Assembly: GCA_013140465.1 (NCBI GenBank)
Contig: JABFST010000055.1
Span: forward strand, 1-10,542
Length of the DNA stretch: 10,542 bases
DNA from: Methylococcaceae bacterium
GTDB taxonomy: Bacteria > Pseudomonadota > Gammaproteobacteria > Methylococcales > Methylomonadaceae
Direction of reading: 5' to 3'
Numbering within the stretch: position 1 is the stretch's first letter; each line of letters begins with the position of its first letter. A program made the translations under genes and the position numbers. Positions 813-9,431 of this stretch are shown here, piece after piece. A model generated the notes under the pieces. The model made no database searches and was not told the DNA's origin. It saw only the letters and a program-made list of their open reading frames with translations.

Positions 813-1025
813 TCAGTCCCGCTTTAAGTGAGTAGCCTGATGTTCTTCGGCAAACTTGCGTAAAGCTCGATTGACTGATTCAGAATCAGGGAAGATTTTG
901 TGTAAGTCAGGTTCAACCAAAACGATATTTGTACCTTCCCGATAACATTTGGCATATTTTCCGCGCACACCCGACTTAATTAAGTCGGCAGGATATTCAG
1001 GTCTAAGTGTATCTTCATTGGTCAT
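813..1025 (-). CDS. Small partner protein (putative antitoxin) of the BrnT-type toxin
   Basis: A 70-aa protein beginning TNEDTLRPEYPADLIKSGVRGKYAKCYREGTNIVLVEPDLHKIFPD. This LRPEYD-x(n)-GVRGKY-x(n)-GTN-V-L-PD-FPD pattern belongs to a widespread small family usually found directly downstream of toxin genes, and is not a canonical ribbon-helix-helix BrnA. The ATG at 1025 lies inside the end of the toxin gene (11-nt overlap) and has a GAGGAG Shine-Dalgarno within the toxin coding sequence, so expression is coupled. The last codons overlap the outer arm of a palindromic repeat, which may have moved the stop codon. An antitoxin role is inferred from pairing with a BrnT-like gene. Confidence 0.65.
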   Translation of the reverse strand: MTNEDTLRPEYPADLIKSGVRGKYAKCYREGTNIVLVEPDLHKIFPDSESVNRALRKFAEEHQATHLKRD

Positions 1026-1284
1026 AAGCGTTACGCTCCTCGTGGGTCATTTGCCGCGCAGAAATAATTCTAATTGTCTCTAAACTTTCAGTAAACGACA
1101 CTACAAGATAATTCCCTTTAAGAGATACTCCAAAAAGCAAGTATCTTGCTTCCTTATACGAATGGTCGGGGTCAGGAACACACGAAGAGTATTCATCAGA
1201 AAACACTTCGGTTGCTTCAAGAAAAGAAATCTTATGTTTTCGTTGATTAGTGCTTGCTTTTACTTCATCCCATTCAAAGTCCAT
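1015..1284 (-). CDS. brnT: BrnT family toxin
   Basis: An 89-aa protein with the full BrnT pattern: an N-terminal FEWDEVKASTNQRKHKISFLEATEVFSDE, a central PDHSYKEARYLLFG segment and the C-terminal VVSFTE...TIRIISARQMTHEERNAYDQ. BrnT toxins are RelE-fold ribonucleases that arrest translation and are neutralised by a downstream partner. The gene lies before its partner, the toxin-first order typical of brnTA. The Shine-Dalgarno before the ATG at 1284 is weak (AGTGG). Its C-terminal half can be aligned by eye with the truncated brnT at 9430-9606, but the partner genes of the two loci are unrelated. Confidence 0.82.
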   Translation of the reverse strand: MDFEWDEVKASTNQRKHKISFLEATEVFSDEYSSCVPDPDHSYKEARYLLFGVSLKGNYLVVSFTESLETIRIISARQMTHEERNAYDQ

Positions 1285-1487: not shown

Positions 1488-1548
1488 GCCCAACGCAAAG
1501 TTCAGCGGGCGAGCGATAGCGAAGCTCCGCTGGAACGTTGAGTTAGAC
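1488..1548 (-). other. Integron attC recombination site (attC1)
   Basis: Read on the minus strand the site has canonical attC order: R'' GTCTAAC (1548-1542), 5-nt spacer, L'' GTTCCAGCGG, a variable hairpin loop, L' CCGCTGAAC, 5-nt spacer, R' GTTGGGC (1494-1488). R'' and R' pair over 7 bp (two G-T pairs). L'' and L' pair over 9 bp with one unpaired C after the third base of L'', which is an extrahelical G on the opposite strand, as integron integrases require. The 61-nt site overlaps the last 15 or so codons of the SLOG gene, a common arrangement in gene cassettes. Confidence 0.8.
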
Positions 1549-2143
1549 TCGGTTGTTTAATCTGAGTATCGGCTTCAATAGGCTGAATATCGAATAAGTC
1601 ATGTTGGATAGACTTTATAGATTGAATTTTTTTGAATAAACCAATTTTAATATCTGCCTTTTTAAGCGATGTCTCGCTCATAAACTTGATTAGCTTTTCG
1701 ATGTCTTGAACGGTTTTTATATTAAGAAACTGTTTGGCTTTGCTTACATATACAACGGCAACTTTATTCTTTTCGACAAGTTCAATTGCATTGCTCAAGG
1801 TGCCCGTGCTACTACCATCCCAAATCATAAAGCCATAATCACAGTCCGTAGCCATTGCCTTGTCTTTAACTGTAAAAAACTGTCTAGTTCCAGGCTTGTA
1901 AGAAGTCTCAACCATTTTTGTATTCCAATGCCCTAGATTGTTTCTAGGCTTATCTCCTGAGCAATACACGACAACAGAACGAACTTCATTTGATTTTAAA
2001 TATTCTTGAATAGAACTATCAACACCACTTGCATCACCAACAATTACGCCTAGGTTTGAAGAGATAATGTTTTTTAGTCGCTCAATAACCTTAGAATCAA
2101 GTTTTTTTATATTAATTGATCCAGATACAAAAACATTTTTCAT
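1502..2143 (-). CDS. SLOG-superfamily (Rossmann-like) nucleotide-binding protein
   Basis: A 213-aa protein. The N-terminal about 150 residues look like the SLOG fold (relatives of LOG, DprA/Smf and YspA-like proteins): a first strand VFVSGS (4-9), a glycine-rich VIVGDASGVDSSIQEYL (33-49), VVVYCSGDKPRNN (57-69), then CDYGFMIWDGSSTGTLSNAIELV (about 101-123), the loop expected to hold a nucleotide or sugar-phosphate ligand. SLOG proteins are proposed to bind, hydrolyse or sense nucleotide derivatives in stress and defence; this gene's ligand is unknown. The C-terminal tail (from about residue 165) is low-complexity, and the final 15 or so residues are encoded within the attC1 site. The ATG overlaps the upstream phosphoribosyltransferase stop by 4 nt (ATGA), so the pair is a coupled operon. 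No membrane segment is seen. Confidence 0.72.
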   Translation of the reverse strand: MKNVFVSGSINIKKLDSKVIERLKNIISSNLGVIVGDASGVDSSIQEYLKSNEVRSVVVYCSGDKPRNNLGHWNTKMVETSYKPGTRQFFTVKDKAMATDCDYGFMIWDGSSTGTLSNAIELVEKNKVAVVYVSKAKQFLNIKTVQDIEKLIKFMSETSLKKADIKIGLFKKIQSIKSIQHDLFDIQPIEADTQIKQPSLTQRSSGASLSLAR

Positions 2144-2721
2144 CGTTTTGTCCTCGTTATTGTTGCTACAAAAATTTTATTGATTTTTGCGTACTGTTTT
2201 AACATCACTGTAGCTGCTTCAAGTGATGACCCTGTATCATATAAGTCATCCACAATTAGCACGTTATATTGACCATCAGCCAACACGTCATTTACCTTAA
2301 AAGCTGAACATAGCACTTTAATTCGTTCTTCTGAAGGGATATTTTTCATTTGATCTGTGCTGGATGCTTTTACCAGCAAATTCTCATTATAGGGAACGTT
2401 CATTAGCTCGGCGACCTGCTTTGCAATTTCTTTTACAGGCTGAAAAAATCTTTGCTTAGAAGGTGGCATTGGAATGATAACTGATGCGCTTTGAAAAGGG
2501 TTACCAAGTGAATCCACTATCTGTTTTGCAAGCATGGCAACTTTACTGCGATCAGATTTGTATTTTAATTGATATAAAGCTTCGCCTACTTCTGTTCGTG
2601 TTGTGTCATATTGCATGTATCCAAAGTCGTTGGATCCAATAGGAACACTGCTAATGGTTTGTTTATCGAGTGAGTAGCCAATATCCCATTTGCCAAAAAT
2701 TTTTTGCACGTTCACTTGCAT
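2140..2721 (-). CDS. ComF-like phosphoribosyltransferase
   Basis: A 193-aa protein with a type I phosphoribosyltransferase core. The PRPP-binding loop is VLIVDDLYDTGSS (154-166), with the two acidic residues and the TGSS phosphate clamp intact. Upstream, SASVIIPMPPSKQRFFQPVKEIAKQVAEL (78-106) matches the ComF family, as does the N-terminal KWDIGYSLDKQT segment. Enzymes of this fold transfer or remove ribose-5-phosphate on nucleobases; some relatives are regulatory. The reading frame is open to 2796, but that extension lies inside the attC site at 2749-2838. The ATG at 2721 follows R' by 27 nt, has a GAGA-type ribosome site and gives the family's usual N-terminus. The gene overlaps the SLOG gene by 4 nt. 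No competence DNA-uptake genes are nearby, so the module is probably not the classic competence ComF. Confidence 0.78.
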   Translation of the reverse strand: MQVNVQKIFGKWDIGYSLDKQTISSVPIGSNDFGYMQYDTTRTEVGEALYQLKYKSDRSKVAMLAKQIVDSLGNPFQSASVIIPMPPSKQRFFQPVKEIAKQVAELMNVPYNENLLVKASSTDQMKNIPSEERIKVLCSAFKVNDVLADGQYNVLIVDDLYDTGSSLEAATVMLKQYAKINKIFVATITRTKR

Positions 2722-2748
2722 AAGTTTCTCGTTCGTTTTGGTGACAAA

Positions 2749-2838
2749 GCCTAACGTAGAGCTAACCGGGCGCGGCACGGAAAGCTGAATAAACAAAACT
2801 GCATTATAACCGCGCTCCGGTTGAGCGCCATGTTAGTT
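2749..2838 (-). other. Integron attC recombination site (attC2)
   Basis: On the minus strand: R'' AACTAAC (2838-2832), 5-nt spacer ATGGC, L'' GCTCAACCGG, a variable central region of about 45 nt, L' CCGGTTAGC, 5-nt spacer TCTAC, R' GTTAGGC (2755-2749). L'' and L' pair over 9 bp with one unpaired C after the third base of L'', exactly the geometry of attC1. R'' and R' pair at 5 of 7 positions, as expected when R' was exchanged by recombination. The site begins 6 nt after the stop of the zinc-ribbon gene and ends 27 nt before the phosphoribosyltransferase ATG, where a cassette boundary should be. An alternative short hairpin (2812-2828) lies within it. Confidence 0.72.
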
Positions 2839-2844
2839 TGCGTT

Positions 2845-3354
2845 TCATAGCTGCTGGATTTCAGAGCGTTTTTTACGCGAATTGGCAGCAAGAAATGACT
2901 CCAGATATGACTTGCTTGCAAAAACGAACGTATGAAATGTTCCGTGCCACTCTATGTATTGGACAGCAGAAGTTGGGCTGCAGCAACTGGATAACATGAG
3001 CGATCGCGCTTGTTTTTGCGCTTTGCTACAAGGCCAGAAACCAAGTAGTGCCACAACCATGCCTACGAAAAAACCGACTGAGCCGCTGCTAGCTTTCGCG
3101 ACGAAAAACCATGCAATTAACCCCAATACAAAGCTAGCCACAAGCCAAATTGATGCTGACTCATAGGCTTCTTCGTGGCGTACGCATTGGGAGCAGTATG
3201 GAACTTTCCACGAAGATGTTGTGGTGTGCCGCACGCGCTTTCCTGTGGTACGAGAAGCCGAAGCATGAAGTTTGGTGTCAGCATTTCCGCCGCAACAAGC
3301 ACATGAATTTGGCCAAGAGAGAAGATTTGCCGAAATTTGAAAGCGCAAAGCCAT
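2845..3354 (-). CDS. Zinc-ribbon two-TM membrane protein, uncharacterised (integron cassette gene)
   Basis: A 169-aa protein not assigned to a named family. Cys18, Cys20, Cys21 and the pair C54-x-x-C57 could form an N-terminal zinc ribbon. Two hydrophobic segments follow, about 69-86 (WLVASFVLGLIAWFFVA) and 91-107 (GSVGFFVGMVVALLGFW), with a short turn between them. The cytosolic C-terminal part carries YIEWHGTFHTFVFASKSYLESFLAAN, which looks like a conserved block. The frame is open to 3402, but the ATG at 3354 is preferred: it has GGAG 8 nt upstream, while the longer form would run through the R' box at 3369-3375. The stop is 6 nt before attC2. It is presumably an integron cassette of unknown function. 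Confidence 0.68.
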   Translation of the reverse strand: MALRFQISANLLSWPNSCACCGGNADTKLHASASRTTGKRVRHTTTSSWKVPYCSQCVRHEEAYESASIWLVASFVLGLIAWFFVAKASSGSVGFFVGMVVALLGFWPCSKAQKQARSLMLSSCCSPTSAVQYIEWHGTFHTFVFASKSYLESFLAANSRKKRSEIQQL

Positions 3355-3368
3355 TAAGGGTTCTCCAT

Positions 3369-3439
3369 ACCTAACTATAATTAGACATCCTATATGACGC
3401 AAAACATTACGTCATCTTGATGCCTAAACCATTTAAAAA
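3369..3439 (-). other. Degenerate attC or attI-like site (attC3 candidate)
   Basis: On the minus strand an R' box GTTAGGT (3375-3369) matches the GTTRRRY consensus. It is preceded by a 5-nt spacer, an L'-like 9-mer (3389-3381) that pairs with 3427-3419 over 9 positions (one G-T pair), and an inner 6-bp hairpin (3394-3399 with 3410-3415). The L'-spacer-R' distances equal those in attC1 and attC2. The expected R'' box near 3433-3439 is not recognisable (A/T-rich), and no extrahelical base is seen. It lies 15 nt upstream of the zinc-ribbon gene start, where a cassette boundary is expected. Confidence 0.4.
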
Positions 3440-3564
3440 AATTTAAATTATTTTTAAATACATATACATAGCTTAATTTAGCACAGCCTAAAAAAAACAC
3501 CTAACCTATCAAAAACCAACCTCATCACAACGCATGTCTGGAACGTGGCCAAAATCAGAAAAGG

Positions 3565-3872: not shown

Positions 3873-3955
3873 GGCTAAAATATTTTTGCCCCACTACTTA
3901 ATACTTTTACAAAGGCGGGTGCTTTACGCTTGTGCCTTGAAAAATCTAGGTTTTA

Positions 3956-3984
3956 TTGACAAGTTGTGGGTGAGCTGATATTTT
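3956..3984 (+). promoter_or_regulatory. Sigma-70-type promoter of the hrcA operon
   Basis: A perfect -35 TTGACA (3956-3961) and a -10-like TATTTT (3979-3984) are separated by 17 nt. Transcription would start near 3991, at the first base of the CIRCE operator, so bound HrcA should block initiation. This leaves an untranslated leader of about 160 nt before hrcA. Confidence 0.65.
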
Positions 3985-3990
3985 TTCGCT

Positions 3991-4017
3991 TTGGCACTCG
4001 TTCTTTGGGAGTGCTAA
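3991..4017 (+). promoter_or_regulatory. CIRCE operator (HrcA binding site)
   Basis: TTGGCACTC (3991-3999), a 9-nt spacer and GAGTGCTAA (4009-4017) match the CIRCE consensus TTAGCACTC-N9-GAGTGCTAA with one difference in the left arm. HrcA dimers bind this inverted repeat and repress chaperone operons until heat or unfolded protein titrates them off. It overlaps the presumed transcription start of hrcA, giving autoregulation. Confidence 0.93.
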
Positions 4018-4041
4018 TTGTGGTTTATCAGTAAGTGTCCT

Positions 4042-8278: not shown

Positions 8279-8409
8279 CCTGTAGGCCGGAATAAGCTGC
8301 TTTGAGCGTAAGCGAAAAGCGGCGTTTCCGGCAAATCGTGGGCGCGGTGTTGCCGGAAACGGCAGTTTTCACTTGCGTTCAAACTGCCTTATTCCGGCCT
8401 ACGAGGCTA
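8279..8409. repeat. 131-bp REP/MITE-like palindromic repeat, copy A1
   Basis: A long imperfect hairpin. The outer 15-bp arms are perfect (8282-8296 with 8388-8402, GTAGGCCGGAATAAG type). A middle 18-bp pairing (TTTGAGCG... with ...CGTTCAAA) has two G-U pairs and one mismatch. Inner 11-bp arms GTTTCCGGCAA and TTGCCGGAAAC close on a loop of about 15 nt. The ends resemble E. coli-type REP sequences (GCCGGATAAGGC...GCCTTATCCGGCCTAC). It is identical to copy A2 at 8758-8888 except for one base (T8336 versus A8815). No internal gene. Confidence 0.88.
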
Positions 8410-8757: not shown

Positions 8758-8888
8758 CCTGTAGGCCGGAATAAGCTGCTTTGAGCGTAAGCGAAAAGCG
8801 GCGTTTCCGGCAAAACGTGGGCGCGGTGTTGCCGGAAACGGCAGTTTTCACTTGCGTTCAAACTGCCTTATTCCGGCCTACGAGGCTA
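8758..8888. repeat. 131-bp REP/MITE-like palindromic repeat, copy A2
   Basis: Matches A1 at 130 of 131 positions with the same nested palindrome. It is directly flanked by the two B copies, so the order is A1, hicB-like gene, B1, A2, B2. The near-identity implies a recent duplication. Confidence 0.88.
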
Positions 8889-8999: not shown

Positions 9000-9431
9000 A
9001 TGAATGTCAAAACGCTCTACGAACATGATTTTTATTCATGGATACAACACCATGTCGCCTTGCTGAAAGATTCGCGTTTTGATGAAATGGATGTCAATAA
9101 TCTGATTGAAGAGCTGGAAGGCATGGCAAAAAAAGATGAGCGCGAACTCGTTAGCCGCTTGATTATCTTGATAGCCCATTTATTAAAATGGCAATATCAG
9201 CCTAATATGCAAAGCAATAGTTGGCAAAGCTCAATTATTGAACAACGCGCGCAAATTTTATTTTTGTTGGAAGATGTGCCGAGTTTAAGCAATAAAATAT
9301 CCGCTGCATTATTAAGGGCGTATCCCAAAGCACGCGAAATCGCGGTTAAAGAAACCGGATTAGTTGATTTGCCAAAACAATGCCCTTATAACGAAAAACA
9401 AATGCTTGATGACGATTTTTATCCTTATTGA
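9000..9431 (+). CDS. DUF29 family protein
   Basis: A 143-aa soluble helical protein with the DUF29 pattern: LYEHDFYSWIQHHVALLKDSRFDEMDVNNLIEELEGMAKKDERELVSRLIILIAHLLKWQYQP, then a C-terminal CPYNEKQMLDDDFYP. The family is common in cyanobacteria and some proteobacteria, often in several copies per genome, and has no established function. The start is well supported by AGGGGGTG 5 nt before the ATG. The length is normal. The stop is directly abutted by a truncated brnT (from about 9430), suggesting a recombination joint exactly at the gene's end. Confidence 0.85.
   Translation: MNVKTLYEHDFYSWIQHHVALLKDSRFDEMDVNNLIEELEGMAKKDERELVSRLIILIAHLLKWQYQPNMQSNSWQSSIIEQRAQILFLLEDVPSLSNKISAALLRAYPKAREIAVKETGLVDLPKQCPYNEKQMLDDDFYPY

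Follow-up and report, generated by a model that had tools for sequence, protein, structure and literature searches.

An integron platform without an intact integrase gene in a Methylococcaceae genome, probably one of many scattered attI sites loaded in trans

The window, i.e. the whole stretch of DNA that was analysed (10,542 bases, the entire contig C255 of the genome's own assembly, G000, which comprises 3.6 Mb in 507 contigs and is 83% complete), carries an integron platform made up of an attI site and two cassettes bounded by attC sites, beside an integrase gene (intI) that has decayed to its start, and this platform is probably one of many scattered attI sites that are likely loaded in trans. 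The anatomy of the platform, with its attI, two attC, cassette boundaries and decayed intI start, is secure, and its features are as follows.

813 to 1284, minus strand: BrnT-type toxin gene and partner, possibly one more cassette, with no attC recognised (Pfam BrnT_toxin, 3.5e-25)
1488 to 1548, minus strand: attC of cassette 1 (site 1; 60.2 bits, E 2.9e-14)
1494 to 2754, minus strand: cassette 1, with two genes, between the two attC cores
1502 to 2143, minus strand: 213-aa partner, putatively SLOG (DprA/ShosA-like), whose tail is encoded within the attC
2140 to 2721, minus strand: ShosT-like phosphoribosyltransferase, 193 aa (PADLOC PsyrT 2.1e-13, ShosT 8.1e-13)
2749 to 2838, minus strand: attC of cassette 2 (site 2; 52.0 bits, E 3.8e-12)
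2755 to 3374, minus strand: cassette 2, between the attI core and the attC core
2845 to 3354, minus strand: cassette 2 gene, 169 aa, a cysteine-motif protein with a hydrophobic middle
3369 to 3375, minus strand: attI core GTTAGGT, with the expected crossover point between G3375 and T3374; the anchor GATGTCTAATTATAGTTA is common to the aligned copies
3369 to 3522, minus strand: attI and intI-promoter element, member of a dispersed family
3374 to 3402, minus strand: possible cassette promoter TTGCGT-17-TATAGT, read by eye, its second hexamer overlapping the attI core
3497 to 3522, plus strand: decayed intI start, ATG changed to ACA, from alignment to the intI remnant on contig C392
3520 to 3665, no strand assigned: non-intI extension common to five intI-less copies (window, G000:C245, G000:C492, G002:C27 and G002:C63)

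The first-pass annotation of the window had proposed two minus-strand attC sites with a shared fine geometry that chance would not give, and both points were borne out by a structural scan, in which each site reached the maximum score of 9, a score found twice in the window versus none of 300 first-order Markov resamplings. The layouts are GTCTAAC-5-L''(10)-loop-L'(9)-5-GTTGGGC at site 1 and AACTAAC-5-L''(10)-loop-L'(9)-5-GTTAGGC at site 2, each with R boxes of seven bases, spacers of five, and an L stem of nine pairs without interruption and a single extrahelical base following pair 3; in site 2 a single base of R'' mismatches (position 2, A instead of Y), and 5/7 R pairs are formed. The covariance-model search that the annotation had proposed as a check likewise matched both sites at the E-values listed above, with a model built from 14 attC training sites on other contigs and in other genomes and no window sequence included, although these sites were picked by our own structural scan for the same geometry and the model and pair counts therefore lean towards it. 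On the plus strand the two sites scored 18.8 and 8.2 bits, indicating a minus-strand preference, and the R'', L'', L' and R' boxes, the extrahelical base and the folding-strand preference were thereby found at both sites. There do not appear to be any further convincing attC in the window, the next-best covariance-model match having an E-value of 0.29. Single-strand folding energy departed only mildly from expectation (z -1.3 to -2.6) and was dropped as proof of attC by itself, and Rfam at gathering thresholds gave no match in the window, leaving the attC question undecided by that route. The described placement at the 3' ends of minus-strand genes was also correct, site 1 overlapping the 3' end of its gene and site 2 lying directly past the stop of the cassette 2 gene. 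Relatives of site 1 occur in the same assembly on contigs C42 (two), C454, C199, C204, C179 and partly C70, and site 2 has a near-copy both in genome G012 and in Methylomicrobium sp. wino1, an isolate.

The element bordering cassette 2 on the other side, at 3370-3522, aligned at 76% identity to C392:7194-7345, where it continues into an open stretch matching positions 1-58 of the integron integrase model; in the window the intI homology ends approximately 26 bases in and the start codon has been lost. Further copies adjoin longer integrase genes, namely a full-length intI broken by a stop after 227 codons in the sister genome G002 (contig C61), and a near-full intI split over two frames and 82% identical to the C61 piece in a low-coverage assembly (L128). 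The attI sites beside the intact intI of G035, G039, G066 and G038, which belong to other genera, have a similar core, with 6 to 8 differences per 25 bases. Since the element abuts intI or intI remnants and its core is like the attI of intact integrons, the element at 3369-3522 is, on these sequence comparisons, an attI that retains a degraded vestige of the intI 5' end. Of the components of a complete integron, attI is therefore present in the window and an intact intI is absent, with only the decayed start of about 26 bp in its place. The newest cassette would be expressed from a promoter inside the attI; the candidate TTGCGT-17-TATAGT was not called by a sigma-70 promoter scan.

The element was present in 10 of the 61 genomes searched, including the own genome, in which eight strong element matches contained seven attI cores (the match on C492 lacks a core and that on C245 has an altered one), and the sister genome G002 had at least 15 attI cores, 11 found at first and then those on C36, C84, C48 and C38. 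An exact 21-base pattern recovered 20 stretches in GTDB species genomes, with four in the complete wino1 chromosome, one in Methylotuvimicrobium buryatense 5G, and others in some Thiomicrospira, Thiomicrorhabdus and Piscirickettsiaceae records. In total 44 attI copies were assembled, with the G012:C120 plus-strand row, a reverse-strand match overlapping the true site, excluded from the intI and ORF counts. An intact intI stood beside none of the 44 within the flank examined, and a broken or remnant intI beside 12 (6/30 + 5/8 + 1/6), these counts being approximate because left flanks were short (less than the intended 1.7 kb in 7/30 copies, the shortest of these having 240 bases, with 206 bases in L126) and because the weakest remnant matches had E-values of 0.005 and 4e-4. 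Across the 44 copies the last 20 bases carried approximately 1.5-2.0 bits each (0.9 for the final base) and the bases 40-60 upstream mostly 0.1-1.2 bits, a contrast that is partly built in since the copies were gathered by core match.

Of the 39 copies whose right flank ran to 400 bases or more, 35 were followed within 100 bp, often at about 20 bp, by the start of an ORF of 50 aa or longer, versus 48% of 3,000 random positions, and 6 of 10 first genes behind attI had no Pfam match at 1e-3. An attC (E<1e-3) in array orientation lay within 2.5 kb downstream of 12/39 copies (10/33 + 2/6, the latter L125 and L126) and was not found within that distance in the remaining 27, several of which had shorter flanks. 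Five copies have an identical-type, intI-less 290-base form, implying duplication after the loss of intI. An element end beginning with AACTAAACCGCTGACGCGG was located at 12 G002 contig ends (L203-L214), each time directly after GTTG, and as an attI core precedes it in 7/12 (C104, C38, C36, C25, C88, C84 and C16), the pattern suggests a mobile element targeting attI.

That no intact integrase lies nearby had been stated correctly in the earlier annotation, and no intI above the TIGR02249 cut-off was present anywhere in the 83%-complete own assembly; an integrase-family match on C343 was rejected as intI, the gene being presumably of XerC/D type as judged from its sequence. There was likewise no intact integrase in G002, only the stop-broken C61 copy. 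Other genomes combine solo attI with intact integrases at a distance: G035 carries a solo attI (C76) and, on another contig (C5), an intact integrase that is 70% identical to the C61 piece, and in G066, a Methylobacter assembly, a solo attI without intI in the 2.7 kb to its left (L125) is followed by six attC in array orientation, with two intact integrases located elsewhere in the genome. The intact integrases of wino1 and 5G share only 41-43% identity with the C61-type piece, and beside them no attI resembling the family was recognised, both of which count against loading in trans in these two strains. Integrase remnants in wino1 (G061), 5G (G062) and G063 (L154-L168) are mostly N-terminal and often approximately 45-80 residues long; several of the N-terminal remnants adjoin attI and C-terminal remnants are rare. 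Selection for a promoter kept inside early intI could explain this N-terminal bias.

Comparison of wino1 and 5G at one shared attI locus revealed different contents behind the same site. The left flank aligns over 973 columns at 92% identity up to the attI core and takes in the region of the integrase remnant, which was identified as a remnant in 5G alone; beyond the core, 361 and 500 bases without similarity are followed by homology resuming from GTTAGCC (GCTAGCC in wino1), so that the exchange boundary falls exactly at the attI core. The end of the swapped segment was read by eye, an attC being called there by neither the structural scan nor the covariance model. Since the left flank aligns unbroken, truncation of the integrase likely preceded the divergence of the two lineages, and the cassette swap therefore likely occurred at an attI without an integrase of its own. 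At a second wino1/5G locus (1813/4373) a GTTATGC core marks the right boundary and a deletion in 5G obscures the left one, with any attC again read by eye only and not called by scan or model; a third (1354/3603) was set aside as uninformative, the attI being missing in 5G. A further solo attI lies downstream of a gene pair that we take, from reading, to be sdhB-sdhE in four genomes of the window genus (G000, G002, G031 and G028), where the left flanks are 79-95% identical over the sdhB part and approximately 75% nearer the site in more distant pairs, the right sides all differ, and homology ends within 6 bases of the core. This case is weaker, since what forms the right side in G002, where the contig ends, is one end of a repeated mobile element, and attC was recognised at none of the four loci. 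Homologous recombination between strains may be the source of the wino1/5G swap or of the sdhB-sdhE differences.

The likely explanation for these observations is that an IntI encoded elsewhere recombines attI with the folded bottom strand of attC, so that cassettes would enter in trans, and we infer that such loading is the best reading of the wino1/5G swap and of the arrangements in G066 and G035. Against this reading, neither the incomplete own assembly nor G002 has an intact integrase that could act as the trans supplier there. That absence, together with intI remnants of varied length beside 12/44 copies, would be expected if the sites were inert fossils of separate integrons acquired at various loci, each of which lost its intI independently. 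Such an origin appears unlikely, though it carries real weight: the solo attI contents of wino1 and 5G differ while the left flank, including the truncated intI, is unbroken, placing the change likely after the loss of intI, and in G066 a solo attI leads six attC with intact integrases elsewhere. A more general arrangement, a distributed integron made up of many intI-free attI stations, each holding one or a few cassettes behind a promoter and all served by one integrase in trans, would replace the single long array and let many cassettes occupy the expressed first place simultaneously; it is proposed tentatively, with the chances a little short of even.

The two remaining alternatives concern the nature of the site itself. 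The annotation had proposed a cluster of attC sites lacking an integrase (CALIN) or a segment of a chromosomal integron, and the part that stood is the presence of attC without an intact intI; the proposal was incomplete, as it did not include the attI and decayed intI trace at 3369-3522. By the definition used in PMC12444791, as far as the available part of that source goes, two attC without a nearby integrase gene do fit a CALIN (at least two attC, no nearby integrase gene), and the window also satisfies that description. A plain CALIN, with cassettes at a genomic site that is not an attI and an irrelevant upstream similarity, is nevertheless very improbable given that an attI core, backed by decayed intI sequence, directly adjoins the first cassette. 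The proximity of gene starts to 35/39 copies, often at about 20 bp, could also be expected of a promoter or repeat family that merely precedes genes and has no attachment function, but the adjacency to intI, the core like that of intact-integron attI, the downstream attC and the exchange boundary exactly at the core leave this the least probable of the readings considered.

The usual picture of an integron is of one attI and one linear array, of which the first cassettes are best expressed. If loading in trans holds, a cell with many solo attI would have several simultaneous first positions, and the storage of cassettes would no longer be tied to the integrase gene. The window resembles a CALIN in having two attC and no intact intI nearby, and differs in having an attI and a decayed intI start and in belonging to a platform repeated through the genome; attC arrays without an integrase are described, in the available part of the source, as mobilisable in trans by a functional IntI (PMC12444791). 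Methylococcales attC are a known taxon class (PMC8352920, available part). As in sedentary chromosomal integrons, the location is chromosomal and cassette functions are varied and often unknown, whereas here there are many attI in place of one long array, the arrays recognised behind them mostly hold between one and three cassettes (G066 has six attC), and there is no integrase in cis. Separate attC sites and arrays are reported for the integrons of Methylococcus Mc7 and M. geothermalis, of the same order as the present host, and dispersed attI are not described in the available text of that report (PMC8527097). In delta-attI gene cassettes, attI-type sites at atypical locations recombine with IntI1 (PMC12901181); from the available text, those attI-type sites lie within unusual cassettes of mobile integrons, whereas the present attI platforms are complete and occur by themselves in chromosomes. 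A literature search, whose coverage largely excluded subscription journals, did not find solo, dispersed or multiple attI sites described. Sites of this kind beyond the best-studied integron classes are easily missed when no intI is nearby, and their presence in the cultured methanotrophs Methylomicrobium sp. wino1 and Methylotuvimicrobium buryatense 5G makes the idea testable.

The cassette 1 pair gave fold matches to ShosT and ShosA (8zvd/8zvb/8zvc and 8zva). For the phosphoribosyltransferase, all 35 members of its alignment match both PADLOC ShosT and PsyrT, and the predicted model (pLDDT 93.4) matched 8zvd in Foldseek at E 5.9e-6, rank 3 behind ComF and PurR; the profiles and the 8zvd match together indicate a ShosT-type phosphoribosyltransferase, although ComF ranks higher. 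The SLOG partner had no ShosA profile match, and Pfam named no family for either this partner or the cassette 2 protein. The latter has 27 homologues, of which 20 of the 24 aligned begin at the same methionine. ShosTA systems act in phage defence, with a phosphoribosyltransferase toxin and a SLOG-protein antidote, and the cassette 1 pair is predicted to be a toxin-antitoxin defence of this type, in which the phosphoribosyltransferase would be the toxin and the SLOG protein the antidote. The likeness to ShosTA and PsyrTA lies in the adjacency of a phosphoribosyltransferase and a putative SLOG/DprA-like partner and in the fold matches, whereas the cassette 1 proteins are shorter, the partner lacks that profile match and the pair is borne on an integron cassette. 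Similar pairs are flanked by attC in other genomes as well. The pair is an addition to the candidates for cassette-borne defence.

The platform adjoins the heat-shock genes of the window, which we take from their translations to be hrcA, grpE, dnaK and dnaJ. When the regions upstream of hrcA, on the hrcA strand, were compared for 19 genus relatives (256 to 1,497 bases each, four below 1,000 bases), none matched the window cassettes or attI at E<1; 13 aligned solely at the promoter stretch 3944-4028 and the remaining six nowhere. This absence indicates that the platform is a lineage-specific insertion, the outer ends of which were not located by the comparison. The first-pass annotation had held that relatives without the palindromes would speak against the sites, and such relatives do literally exist, in a manner that reflects this insertion and does not run counter to the attC.

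Homologues of the BrnT and partner pair terminate beside attC sites, all of one type, in four further loci (L018 4147-5473, L154 606-1123, L112 2895-3411 and L019 2217-2733), and this repeated ending at attC suggests that the module is probably a common cassette. REP-like palindromes lie at 743-812 and 1380-1454 of the window and recur on other contigs; that at 1380-1454 adjoins attC in the window, as does its repeat in contig C204. Short repeats of the AACTGGGGTCAGAGTAAATTTAAATAACTGGGG type are strewn around cassette-like genes in the same assembly (L015 1-380 and L035 1-3300), and one repeat of this type interrupts a copy of the attI element. Between dnaK and dnaJ there are two 131-base copies at 8279-8409 and 8758-8888 with 99% identity and a long inverted repeat in each, and the same interval contains a DUF29 gene at 9000-9431 (Pfam 8e-49).
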